A stretch of DNA of 64,000 bases, taken from contig NC_017243.1 in assembly GCF_000223215.1 (NCBI RefSeq), positions 2,232,001-2,296,000 on the forward strand, read 5' to 3'. The position numbers and the translations under genes are program-made. The DNA is from Brachyspira intermedia PWS/A (lineage in GTDB: Bacteria > Spirochaetota > Brachyspiria > Brachyspirales > Brachyspiraceae). Positions 46,196 to 50,690 of the stretch are shown here, piece by piece; the first letter of the stretch is position 1; every line of letters begins with the position of its first letter. Below the pieces are notes generated by a model, which had not been told where the DNA came from, did no database searches, and worked only from the letters and a program-made list of their open reading frames with translations.

Positions 46196-46552
46196 ATATG
46201 CATCATAACAAAACTTTACTGATATTTTATTAAGTAAATTTAGTAATATTTTTTATTATTGCTATCCTACCCTACATCTAATACTCTATACTTGATAATC
46301 TATATAATAATAAATTAATTGATCTGTAAAGCTAATCTATTGAACTTAGTTTTTATATTTTATAACAACTTATTTTTTCTACTACTTCAATATGATTATA
46401 ATATAGAATTATATTTTACTATTTTTTGTTTAACTCAAAAATATATGTCAATAAGTAATTTTCAATTTAATCTATAATTTTAAATATATTCAAATTTATT
46501 TAAAAAATTTATTGCCTTTATTATACAAATTGTTATATTATTAATAGATGGT

Positions 46553-46634
46553 TGTGATAATTAATTACAATATAAAGTTTTTATATCACATAAAAAAGCT
46601 AAGGTTTATTTATGAATGAAAAAAGGAGGTATAT
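46553..46634 (+). promoter_or_regulatory. Conserved leader of microprotein cassette 1
   Basis: TGTGATA (46553-46559) and TATCACA (46584-46590) form a 7-bp stem, followed by CATAAAAAA, then TAAGGTTTA-TTATGAATGAAAAAAGGAG leading to the start codon (split here to show the blocks). The same blocks occur in cassette 2, 320 bp downstream. The ATGAATGAA mini-frame is in frame with the ORF here but not in copy 2, so it is not the true start. Confidence 0.6.
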
Positions 46635-46635
46635 T

Positions 46636-46746
46636 ATGACTAAACTATTTAATATATTAGATAATGAATGTACTTTTATTAATGATGAAGATTATAGGGT
46701 ATTAATAAGTGAATATTATGAGATAATAAGGAAATATGAAGAATGA
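46636..46746 (+). CDS. 36-residue acidic microprotein, copy 1
   Basis: Starts MTKLFNILDNECTFINDEDY and ends LISEYYEIIRKYEE. AAAAGGAGG lies 6 bases upstream, an excellent ribosome site. The second copy (46957) is also exactly 36 codons with the same pattern: MTKL.N.L.N.C...(D/N)DE(D/E)Y..LISEY..II...EE. Conserved length, frame and residues in a diverged tandem pair argue for selection on the protein. No transmembrane segment or signal peptide. No family is known to me. Confidence 0.6.
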   Translation: MTKLFNILDNECTFINDEDYRVLISEYYEIIRKYEE

Positions 46747-46770
46747 ACGATATTATTTGTTTCTCCTTAA

Positions 46771-46799
46771 GCCTATGCATTAACTGCATAGGCTTTTTT
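46771..46799 (+). terminator. Terminator of microprotein cassette 1
   Basis: GCCTATGCA (46771-46779) and TGCATAGGC (46785-46793) form a perfect 9-bp stem with a 5-base loop, then six Ts. Nearly the same hairpin ends cassette 2. Confidence 0.85.
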
Positions 46800-46874
46800 A
46801 TTATCTATAATTAAATAAATACATAAAAAGTTATTGCTTTTCTATATTAATTTCTTATATTTTTAGTATAAATC

Positions 46875-46955
46875 GTGATAACAAACCACAATATAAACTC
46901 TATATATCACATAAAAAATTAAGGTTTACTTATGAATGAAAAAAGGAGATCTACA
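46875..46955 (+). promoter_or_regulatory. Conserved leader of microprotein cassette 2
   Basis: GTGATA (46875-46880) and TATCAC (46905-46910) form the same stem as in cassette 1. CATAAAAAA, TAAGGTTTAC and TTATGAATGAAAAAAGGAG follow. Here the ATGAATGAA mini-frame is out of frame with the ORF and stops after 17 codons. Confidence 0.6.
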
Positions 46956-46956
46956 C

Positions 46957-47067
46957 ATGACAAAATTATTAAATACTTTGAATAATGACTGTATTTTATT
47001 AGATGATGAAGAATATAATTTATTAATCAGCGAATATAACGACATAATAGAAAATGTGGAAGAATAA
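46957..47067 (+). CDS. 36-residue acidic microprotein, copy 2
   Basis: Starts MTKLLNTLNNDCILLDDEEY and ends LISEYNDIIENVEE. AAAAGGAG precedes the ATG. Same length and residue pattern as copy 1. It is followed by its own terminator, 155 bp before the large DUF4132 gene. An association with DUF4132 is possible but rests on position only. Confidence 0.6.
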   Translation: MTKLLNTLNNDCILLDDEEYNLLISEYNDIIENVEE

Positions 47068-47087
47068 GATTTATTTTTTCCTATTGA

Positions 47088-47116
47088 GCCTATGCGGTAA
47101 GTGCATAGGCTTTTTT
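47088..47116 (+). terminator. Terminator of microprotein cassette 2
   Basis: GCCTATGC (47088-47095) and GCATAGGC (47103-47110) pair around a 7-base loop, followed by six Ts. Confidence 0.85.
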
Positions 47117-47222
47117 ATTATTAAGAATGTTATTGATATTTGTATTATATTATCTCTATTGACAATAAATAAAAAATACATATACTATATATTAATATAG
47201 ATTAATAATAAGAGGTGAATTT

Positions 47223-50200
47223 ATGGACTTAGAAGAAAAACTTGCAATATATTATCAAGGCTCTGCTATAGAAGATGATATGGCAAAATGTGAAGCTACA
47301 AATGATTTCAGTAAAATAAAAAGACATCCTTATGACTATTTCCATTATAAAGAGGAGTTTTTGAAAGATTATTTTTCTATAGAAGATGAAAAATTAAAAA
47401 AAAGATATGAACATTTCATGAAGATACTTATTTATGGAAAAGATAAGGAAGGAGAAGGCGGAACTAGATATGTTATTTTTGATTATATAGTCAATAGAGA
47501 TTTTGAAAAGTCACTTAGATATCTTGTTTATGGATATGAGAAAAGATATAAAGAGCAGGCAAGAACTTTAAATGGTGAAAGTTTAATATATACAGTTTTT
47601 GAAGATTTTAATAAATACTTCAGTAAAGAGTTTCAAGAATACACAGATAAATATATTGATATTATTAATAACAATGATAATAAAAAAATATTAAAAAAAA
47701 TGGATAGAGATGCTGTAATACCATTGATTGCAATATGTTCTGTTATAAAAAATAATAAAGAATGTGATGAGAAATATATAAATGCAGCTATAAAATCATT
47801 CGATGTTCTTCCTAATCTTTATGATACTTTAAATGTAATTGCTGCTATCTTAGATAAAAATGAGTCTATAAAAAATAAATTTATAGAAGTGCTTAATAAA
47901 AATGAAGAATATATAATTGACATTAATATTATACTTGGATACCATTTAAGATCATTAGATTATAACAATCCTTATAAAGCTAGAGAGAAATTCTTTAATG
48001 CAATAAATTATCCAAATGATTTCGCATTTATAGCTCAGCATTTTGAGGACTATTTTCATTATGCCTTCATTTATGGGGCAAGAGATTTATATTTGAATCA
48101 TAAAGAAGATTTTTATAAAATTTATAATTTTGTAGAAAATAGTTTAAATAGTGATAGGTATAATAATAATAGAAATAATGATAGAAATAAAAGAATATTT
48201 ATAGTGCTTAGCGGTGTTTTACTAGAACATAATAATAATAAAATAGACACAAATAATTTAAAAAATGCAGTAAGTGTATTAGAAACTATAGTTAATAAAT
48301 TTACAAAAGATAATTCTGATAGATATAATAAAAGACCAGCATTCACTACTACAGTAAAAATAGAAGAAATATTTGATAAAGATAAAAATAAACTCTTTGA
48401 TACGCTTATAGATTATTATACAGACAAAAAAAATACATACAATCTATACAGCACATACAGATGGGGAAATACTCTCCCTGAATATTGTCTTAATACAGAA
48501 CTTTATTATTTATTCTCTTTATTTAATTATGACATTGATGAAATGAAAAACTATAAAAAGTTTGCTCTCGATATTCTTAAATATTTACCAATTCAGATTG
48601 GAATAAGAAAATATATAGAAGTTCAGGCATCTATAGGAACTAAAACTTTAAAAGAAGTTATTGATAGTCTATTAAATAATAAAGAATTGAATATTACATT
48701 AAAAGAAATTTTATTATCATACTATTTTGATTATGCAGGAGATCTTTCAAATTATTATTATGACTATGGCGGAAAATCTCTTCCTACATTATATAAAGAA
48801 CTTAGATGCGTAGATGAAAATAATAATGTTATTATAAATAGCGTAAAAGATGAGTTATTAAAAAGCTATTTTGATGAAGTTGTAAATATATTAAATGATG
48901 ATAAGTTTATAAAAGATAATATAGCAAGCAATAAAAATACAGCCTTAGATATATTAAGAACATTGTATAATAAATGTCATTATAATGATTATCATTTAGT
49001 TTATACGATTCTTGAAAATACAAAGAGAGTAGAAGTAAAAAGGCATTGTATTAAAGTTATTTCTGATAATGAATCTATTACAAGAGAATATGTTGAGAAG
49101 ATGTCAGAGAAAGCAAGATCATCAGAACTTAAAGGAGCATTAAAAAATATTATTAAGAATTGGAATCTTAAAAAATACGGGGAGTATTTCAAAAGTATCG
49201 ATGAGGCTTTGGAGTTTATTGACACTTACTACAATACAAACTATGAAAAAAATATAAAATTCTTAGAAGATGTTCATTTGACAAAAGTTTTATACAATAA
49301 TGGAACATTGGCTGATGAGAGAATATTTAAATATATCATTATGGAATATATGAATTTAGTAGAGCCATCAAGATTAAAAGACTGCGATATGCTTGCTGAA
49401 ATTCTTGATACTACTTCATTTACTAATGCTTTGGAGATGCTATATATTCATTGGAAAGATTCTAATTATGAAGCTACAAAAAAGAATATTTTAATACCTT
49501 ATTTAATATATTCTGATGATTTGAAAATAGATAAAGTTTATCCTCTTATAAAAGAATTTGCTAAGGGATCTCGTACTGTTATGGCAGCATTTATTGTAAA
49601 ATGTATGGCATTAAACGGAAAGAACTATGCATTAATACTAGTAGACGGACTTACAAGAAAATCACCTACAGCAAAAATAAAAGAAGTGGCAATAGAAACT
49701 ATGGAGAATGCTGCTTATATGCTTGATATGACAGCCGATGAACTTTCAGACAGAATAATACCTAATTTCGGATTTAGTCAAAAAGGTGAAAGAGTTTTAA
49801 ACTACGGCGGAGAAGCAAGAAGAACATTCACATTATCAATAGACAATAATCTTGAACTTACAATTACAGATAATGAAAAACAAAAAGTAATAAAATCACT
49901 TCCAGCACCAAACAGCAAAGACGACAAAGCAGAAGCTGACAGTGCTAAAAAAGAATGCACTACTCTTAAGAAAGAAATAAAAACTTTGATACAGAATCAG
50001 AAAATAAGGCTTCAAAAAGTTTTATTAAACGGCAGAAAATGGACTTACAACAATTTTAAAACTGTATTTGTTGAAAACCCAATAATGAACATATTTGCTT
50101 TGAAGCTTATTTGGGGTGCTTATGACGAAAACAACAATTTAATACAAAGTTTCAGATACATGGAAGACGGCACTTTCAATACAGTTGATGAAGAAGAGTA

Positions 50201-50690
50201 CACTTTACCGGAGAACAGTTTAATAACTTTGGTTCACCCTTCAGAATTAGATGCTGACACTATAGCCAAATGGAAAACTCAATTATCAGATTATGAGATA
50301 TCACAGCCTATAGAACAGCTTGATTTCAAATATGAAGAGATTAAAGAAGAAGACATAAAAGAAGATAAAATTCATTCTCTTGACTCTAAAACAATAAAGG
50401 CTGGTGTATTGATGTCATTAGCTACTAAGTATGATATGGCTAGAGGTGAGGCTATGGACGGAGGAACTTTCTGCGAGTACATATTAAAAGATACTTATCT
50501 CAACATATCAGTTCATCTCTCATTCGACTATATGTATTTCGGAATGGACGGTAATGAAGATATTAATTTCGGTGATATTGAGTTCTGCGAAATTACTGAC
50601 GGTATTGAAACTTTGATTAATCCTTTAAAAGTTAATAAGAGATTTGCTTCTTCAATTTACAGTATAGTGAAAAGTGTTTTTGTAGATTAA
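47223..50690 (+). CDS. Large DUF4132-domain protein
   Basis: 1155 residues, soluble. The C-terminal 230 residues contain the DUF4132 core: W1006-type TYNNFKTVFVENPIMNIFALKLIWGAYD, RYMEDGTFN and LVHPSELD. The preceding 900 residues are helical and repeat-like (HEAT-like spacing), with no enzyme motif seen. Relatives include E. coli YehI-type proteins of unknown role. AGAGGTG lies 5 bases before the ATG. The 3' end is closed by the hairpin inside repeat B copy 3. Confidence 0.75.
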   Translation: MDLEEKLAIYYQGSAIEDDMAKCEATNDFSKIKRHPYDYFHYKEEFLKDYFSIEDEKLKKRYEHFMKILIYGKDKEGEGGTRYVIFDYIVNRDFEKSLRYLVYGYEKRYKEQARTLNGESLIYTVFEDFNKYFSKEFQEYTDKYIDIINNNDNKKILKKMDRDAVIPLIAICSVIKNNKECDEKYINAAIKSFDVLPNLYDTLNVIAAILDKNESIKNKFIEVLNKNEEYIIDINIILGYHLRSLDYNNPYKAREKFFNAINYPNDFAFIAQHFEDYFHYAFIYGARDLYLNHKEDFYKIYNFVENSLNSDRYNNNRNNDRNKRIFIVLSGVLLEHNNNKIDTNNLKNAVSVLETIVNKFTKDNSDRYNKRPAFTTTVKIEEIFDKDKNKLFDTLIDYYTDKKNTYNLYSTYRWGNTLPEYCLNTELYYLFSLFNYDIDEMKNYKKFALDILKYLPIQIGIRKYIEVQASIGTKTLKEVIDSLLNNKELNITLKEILLSYYFDYAGDLSNYYYDYGGKSLPTLYKELRCVDENNNVIINSVKDELLKSYFDEVVNILNDDKFIKDNIASNKNTALDILRTLYNKCHYNDYHLVYTILENTKRVEVKRHCIKVISDNESITREYVEKMSEKARSSELKGALKNIIKNWNLKKYGEYFKSIDEALEFIDTYYNTNYEKNIKFLEDVHLTKVLYNNGTLADERIFKYIIMEYMNLVEPSRLKDCDMLAEILDTTSFTNALEMLYIHWKDSNYEATKKNILIPYLIYSDDLKIDKVYPLIKEFAKGSRTVMAAFIVKCMALNGKNYALILVDGLTRKSPTAKIKEVAIETMENAAYMLDMTADELSDRIIPNFGFSQKGERVLNYGGEARRTFTLSIDNNLELTITDNEKQKVIKSLPAPNSKDDKAEADSAKKECTTLKKEIKTLIQNQKIRLQKVLLNGRKWTYNNFKTVFVENPIMNIFALKLIWGAYDENNNLIQSFRYMEDGTFNTVDEEEYTLPENSLITLVHPSELDADTIAKWKTQLSDYEISQPIEQLDFKYEEIKEEDIKEDKIHSLDSKTIKAGVLMSLATKYDMARGEAMDGGTFCEYILKDTYLNISVHLSFDYMYFGMDGNEDINFGDIEFCEITDGIETLINPLKVNKRFASSIYSIVKSVFVD

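Follow-up and report, generated by a model that had tools for sequence, protein, structure and literature searches.

The SinI-type antirepressor domain (PF08671) is small, its acidic helix follows the pattern LDxEWxxLIxEA, and it acts by binding a partner protein. Spo0E-like aspartyl phosphatases (PF09388) are likewise small, forming a two-helix hairpin with a motif like SQELDxLIxxY. Among regulatory RNAs, SR1/SR1P is a dual-function small RNA, in which a short stand-alone transcript carries a small ORF, with a pyrimidine tract ahead of the terminator. The two small genes described here, from a Brachyspira genome, recall each of these systems. Their family pattern, LDDEEYxxLIxEY, resembles that of SinI; a small, modelled two-helix shape and a similar motif are shared with the Spo0E-like proteins; and with SR1/SR1P they share a short predicted stand-alone transcript that contains a small ORF and, ahead of its terminator, a pyrimidine tract. 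Unlike dual-function small RNAs of that kind, however, the units have no Rfam match above threshold, and conservation of their tract does not extend to the whole family. Membership in either protein family is rejected: no SinI match passes the cut-off in the 26 Brachyspira genomes searched, the weak matches not being at family loci, and no Spo0E-like match passes the cut-off in the genus, the weak matches lying in other genes than the family's. The SQELD motif is also absent from the family alignment, where that position is taken by D[DE]E[DE]Y. With genus-restricted small-protein families in general, the genes have in common their shortness, their conservation, the lack of a known domain, and the confinement to a single clade, the difference being that one branch here has a private, geometrically fixed leader.

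The window analysed is a stretch of 64,000 nt from Brachyspira intermedia PWS/A, whose 3.3 Mb genome was searched together with 25 other Brachyspira genomes (26 in total). Within it, two units, a and b, lie head to tail between an unassigned 361-aa ORF and a DUF4132 gene. Each begins with a promoter-like site and a conserved leader, followed by a Shine-Dalgarno (SD) site, an acidic ORF of 36 codons, and a strong intrinsic terminator (Table 1). The original prediction, made from the sequence of this locus, had described two tandem units with leader, ORF, and terminator, and all of the sequence elements that it described are present. It had also reported a near-identical TAAGGTTTA...AAAAAAGGAG segment in both units. 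This holds within the B. intermedia genome and its close relatives, but identity across species is only ~65%, and recent homogenisation between copies is therefore a more likely source of the resemblance than strong constraint.

Table 1. Features of units a and b and of the adjoining DUF4132 gene, with positions counted in the window.
Feature	Position	Strand	Remarks
Predicted promoter, unit a (TTGCCT, 16 nt, TATATT)	46512..46539	+	9/12 matches; TG before second hexamer
Leader element, unit a	46554..46594	+	Boxes GTGAT 46554-46558, ACAATATA 46567-46574, TCACA 46586-46590
SD site of ORF a	46623..46629	+	AAGGAGG; 0.98 identity from SD to ATG among a copies
ORF a, 36 aa, MTKLFNILDNECTFINDEDYRVLISEYYEIIRKYEE	46636..46746	+	dN/dS 0.16 among 9 orthologues; profile E 1e-18
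Pyrimidine-rich 3' UTR tract, unit a (TTTGTTTCTCCTT)	46752..46768	+	0.95 identity among a copies
Intrinsic terminator, unit a	46769..46801	+	11 pairs, 5 G-C, T tail
Predicted promoter, unit b (TTGCTT, 16 nt, TATATT)	46834..46861	+	From homology to unit a and orthologues; below scan threshold
Leader element, unit b	46875..46915	+	Boxes GTGAT 46875-46879, ACAATATA 46888-46895, TCACA 46907-46911
SD site of ORF b	46943..46949	+	AAGGAGA, from sequence
ORF b, 36 aa, MTKLLNTLNNDCILLDDEEYNLLISEYNDIIENVEE	46957..47067	+	dN/dS 0.15 among b and b-like orthologues; profile E 2e-18
Pyrimidine-rich 3' UTR tract, unit b	47070..47085	+	Less conserved (0.66)
Intrinsic terminator, unit b	47086..47118	+	Terminator scan
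Promoter-like site for DUF4132 gene (TTGACA, 16 nt, TATACT)	47159..47186	+	11/12 matches
DUF4132 protein gene	47223..50690	+	Pfam PF13569, E 3.5e-39; neighbour, not an obligatory part

A DNA search finds orthologues of the units intact, at orthologous places, in half of the genomes (13/26): five have both a and b copies (G000, G007, G022, G023, G025), four have an a copy alone (G004, G005, G006, G024), and four have a b-like copy (G008, G009, G014, G015). When these were checked for frameshifts and stop codons, every orthologue was found to be open, and the claim of a real gene stands. The dN/dS ratios from Nei-Gojobori counts are 0.16 among a copies, 0.15 among b copies including the b-like ones, and 0.34 between a and b. 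Values of ~0.15 indicate purifying selection, with the ORFs conserved as protein. Both ORFs have 36 codons if translation starts at MTKL; this start is conserved as MTKL/MSRL, and the ATG upstream of MTKL is not conserved, its context differing between copies a and b. It is thus nearly certain that the ORFs belong to a selected protein family, and the original proposal is borne out in that the small gene is protein-coding, is duplicated, falls in no known family, and comes with a leader and a terminator of its own.

With a profile built from 23 aligned members, we find 52 family loci (E<1e-3) in 18 of the 26 Brachyspira genomes. The core motif is D[DE]E[DE]Yx[LS]LIxEY, and the invariant residues of the alignment are M1, Y20, L23, E26, and Y27. 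Among 296 genomes of the phylum, no credible member occurs outside the genus, the three weak matches all lying inside long ORFs, and a low-sensitivity search with one short pattern in 84,980 species genomes had all its matches in Brachyspira. A viral origin is rejected, as viral contigs contain no relative. No family match was obtained in Pfam, NCBIfam, or PDB sequences (best PDB match E 0.25); the best PHROG match (E 0.0036) is to a family without known function, weakly matched by six members. A literature search by title and abstract on Brachyspira small proteins and transcriptomes and on DUF4132 gave nothing relevant. The family is apparently undescribed and specific to Brachyspira. It adds a selected, genus-wide set of ~50 proteins, mostly 30-45 residues long, to a group of animal-gut spirochaetes in which regulation has hardly been studied.

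An AlphaFold2 model made with the family alignment has helices at residues 2-9 and 17-35 (mean pLDDT 81, pTM 0.45), although models of a 36-residue helical peptide such as this one are weak evidence. The longer helix is amphipathic and contains the family motif, and its hydrophobic face (Y20, L23, I24, Y27) holds the conserved residues. A Foldseek search against the PDB returned nothing at E 10 or better, a 36-residue query having little power. The microprotein is small, acidic, and probably cytosolic and, as modelled, would have a short helix, a turn, and the longer amphipathic helix. Because the modelled protein has no room for an active site or a membrane segment, the most likely role would be docking on a partner protein, either as an adaptor or as an antagonist, and we give such protein-protein docking about an even chance.

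Aligned leaders show three blocks, GTGAT, ACAATATA, and TCACATAAA, the second of which is an imperfect repeat in many copies. All copies measured have the same 32-nt span from GTGAT (box 1) to TCACA (box 3); the distance from box 3 to the SD site is variable (29 to 39 nt), as is that from the -10 site to box 1 in diverged copies (12 to 29 nt). A degenerate leader pattern allowing ≤3 mismatches has 21 matches in the 26 genomes, 20 of them before family ORFs. A sequence-only model of the leader gives 20 matches at E<1e-7, all before family ORFs, with the next best at E 0.002; as the matches include the sequences used to build the model, the telling result is this gap in E and the absence of a strong match elsewhere. 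Since no strong matches occur away from family ORFs, the element is private to one branch of the family (a, b, and b-like), which it marks unambiguously as a cis element. One unit b (G023; L009/L033) has lost part of the element from its leader, and its ORF is intact. Family members with a DUF6198 gene downstream (L082:7234-7344; G020:C128 homologue, L109) have a different conserved leader, GCGGGGTAGGTTAYAAAATGGAGG.

In the original prediction, the leader was read as a GTGATA/TATCAC stem. The sequence is indeed conserved, but the idea of a conserved RNA hairpin did not survive the comparison: 86% of the pairs are standard, yet there is no compensatory change and several breaks are one-sided. 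An alternative inner stem likewise lacks covariation, RNAalifold predicts no pair on the leaders, and no covarying base pairs that would signal a structured RNA leader or riboswitch are found in the alignment. We instead infer a three-box element of fixed spacing that is more like a protein-binding site than an RNA hairpin. The half-sites GTRAT, AYYAC, and ATCAC are spaced roughly 10 and 21 bp, or about one and two helical turns, which favours a DNA-bound regulator. A DNA operator is accordingly a plausible reading of the leader, to which we assign somewhat less than an even chance; the confinement of the sites to family ORFs, with no genome-wide set, is unusual for a DNA operator and counts against it, as do the imperfect box 2 of many copies, the damaged leader ahead of an intact ORF in unit b of G023, and the variable spacing of the -10 site and box 1. 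The leader would then be a protein-binding site just downstream of the predicted transcription start, where a putative regulator would repress or tune transcription of the microprotein gene. This control could be autoregulatory, given that the leader is private to its branch.

The same boxes could in principle act in RNA, with box 1 pairing with either box 2 or box 3 and a ligand or protein deciding between them to control translation. Box 1 is able to pair with both, the single folds differ between the units (inner stem in a, outer stem in b), and the element lies within the predicted 5' UTR. Besides the lack of compensatory change in either stem and of any RNAalifold pair, however, the folds are about as stable as those of shuffled sequences (z -0.85 and 0.28), and the loop length never varies, which is unusual for an RNA loop. 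We consider such a switch unlikely. The same low probability applies to a further proposal, that the leader is a new dedicated control element (an operator of three half-sites, or an RNA switch based on the choice of box 1 between boxes 2 and 3) tied to one branch, with the microprotein feeding back on its regulator.

The predicted promoters rest on conservation, as the promoter scan itself is no better than chance (11 found, 11.6 expected): the unit a promoter region has 0.85 identity among a copies, compared to 0.55 for the sequence upstream. The terminators of the original prediction are far beyond chance (2 found versus 0.1 expected in shuffles), and units a and b each have the look of an independent transcription unit that ends in a terminator of its own. 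The pyrimidine-rich tract that separates the stop codon from the terminator is more conserved among the a copies than their third codon positions are (0.95 versus 0.79, with 0.55 upstream of the promoter), and in the a copies it is complementary to the SD site. One explanation would be a dual-function RNA that encodes the protein and also base-pairs through a CUCCUU tract with AAGGAG sites, either on other mRNAs or at its own SD site. The conservation of the tract, the predicted stand-alone transcript with a strong terminator, and the pairing of tract and SD predicted for some of the a copies (G000a, G024a, and G006a, P 0.5-0.64) are all consistent with this. In most copies, however, the pairing probability is near zero, and the b copies carry a different tract, conservation in the b/x copies being lower (0.66). 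Nothing in Rfam exceeds the gathering threshold, the best match being RsaH at 22.2 bits versus 50. An Hfq-linked small RNA is rejected, as no match to PF17209 at the Pfam cut-off was found in any of the 26 Brachyspira genomes, with five control genomes matching. A small-RNA side function of the tract is possible; we regard the dual-function RNA as an improbable account of the units.

Beyond the a and b loci, the more constant partner of the family is not DUF4132 but a PepSY-like gene (PF11396), located 38-145 bp downstream on the same strand in 18 of the 32 further members examined. The PepSY-like block usually includes TPR-like and CoA-disulfide reductase-like genes (labelled from sequence only), and fabV, labelled by Pfam, is often upstream. 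That a PepSY-like gene follows many copies suggests a link to the envelope or to redox functions. The remaining members include some that follow a flavin reductase-rubredoxin gene and some that precede a DUF6198 gene. Members at L084:6848-6946, L080, L081, L112, L120, and L123 begin 87-97 bp after the flavin reductase-rubredoxin gene, behind a hairpin, and at L080, L081, and L084 the member converges with a methylase-like gene on the opposite strand. A role in a type I or type II toxin-antitoxin pair would suit the microprotein's small size and its multicopy, tandem, patchy occurrence within the genus, but the protein is acidic and soluble and lacks a membrane helix, unlike a typical type I toxin, and no constant small partner gene adjoins the family members, so that we find such a role very unlikely.

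In one genome (G014, L076:6230-7079), three tandem members lie between fabV and the PepSY-like gene, and this array joins both leader types, with the private leader before copies 1 and 2 and the leader type of the PepSY group before copy 3. Since both branches are kept in tandem at that place, the simplest history is that the copies were duplicated in tandem there and dispersed later, and this is the probable origin. The mechanism in full, namely a selected, acidic two-helix docking protein, a leader operator, and duplication with dispersal, is a tentative scheme that we judge less likely than not to hold as a whole.

The original prediction had placed the units in front of a large DUF4132 gene. 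This adjacency holds in most genomes with a or b units and occurs in three different chromosomal settings, but it is not obligatory: other genes intervene in G008 and G014, unit and gene are ~230 kb apart in G009, and a close DUF4132 homologue is present without any family member in G010, G012, G013, and G016. Moreover, DUF4132-related proteins make up a large family of paralogues in the genus, with as many as 20 matches in one genome, and their number makes the adjacency weak evidence. The promoter-like site ahead of the DUF4132 gene suggests that this gene is transcribed separately. Although a short ORF, a terminator, and a large gene in the same direction follow one another in most a/b loci, it is hardly credible that the ORFs are leader peptides with terminators that attenuate the DUF4132 gene, given this near-consensus site, the exceptions to adjacency above, and conservation of amino acid sequence rather than of a codon run. 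Separately, one DUF4132 copy in G002 is broken by several stops.
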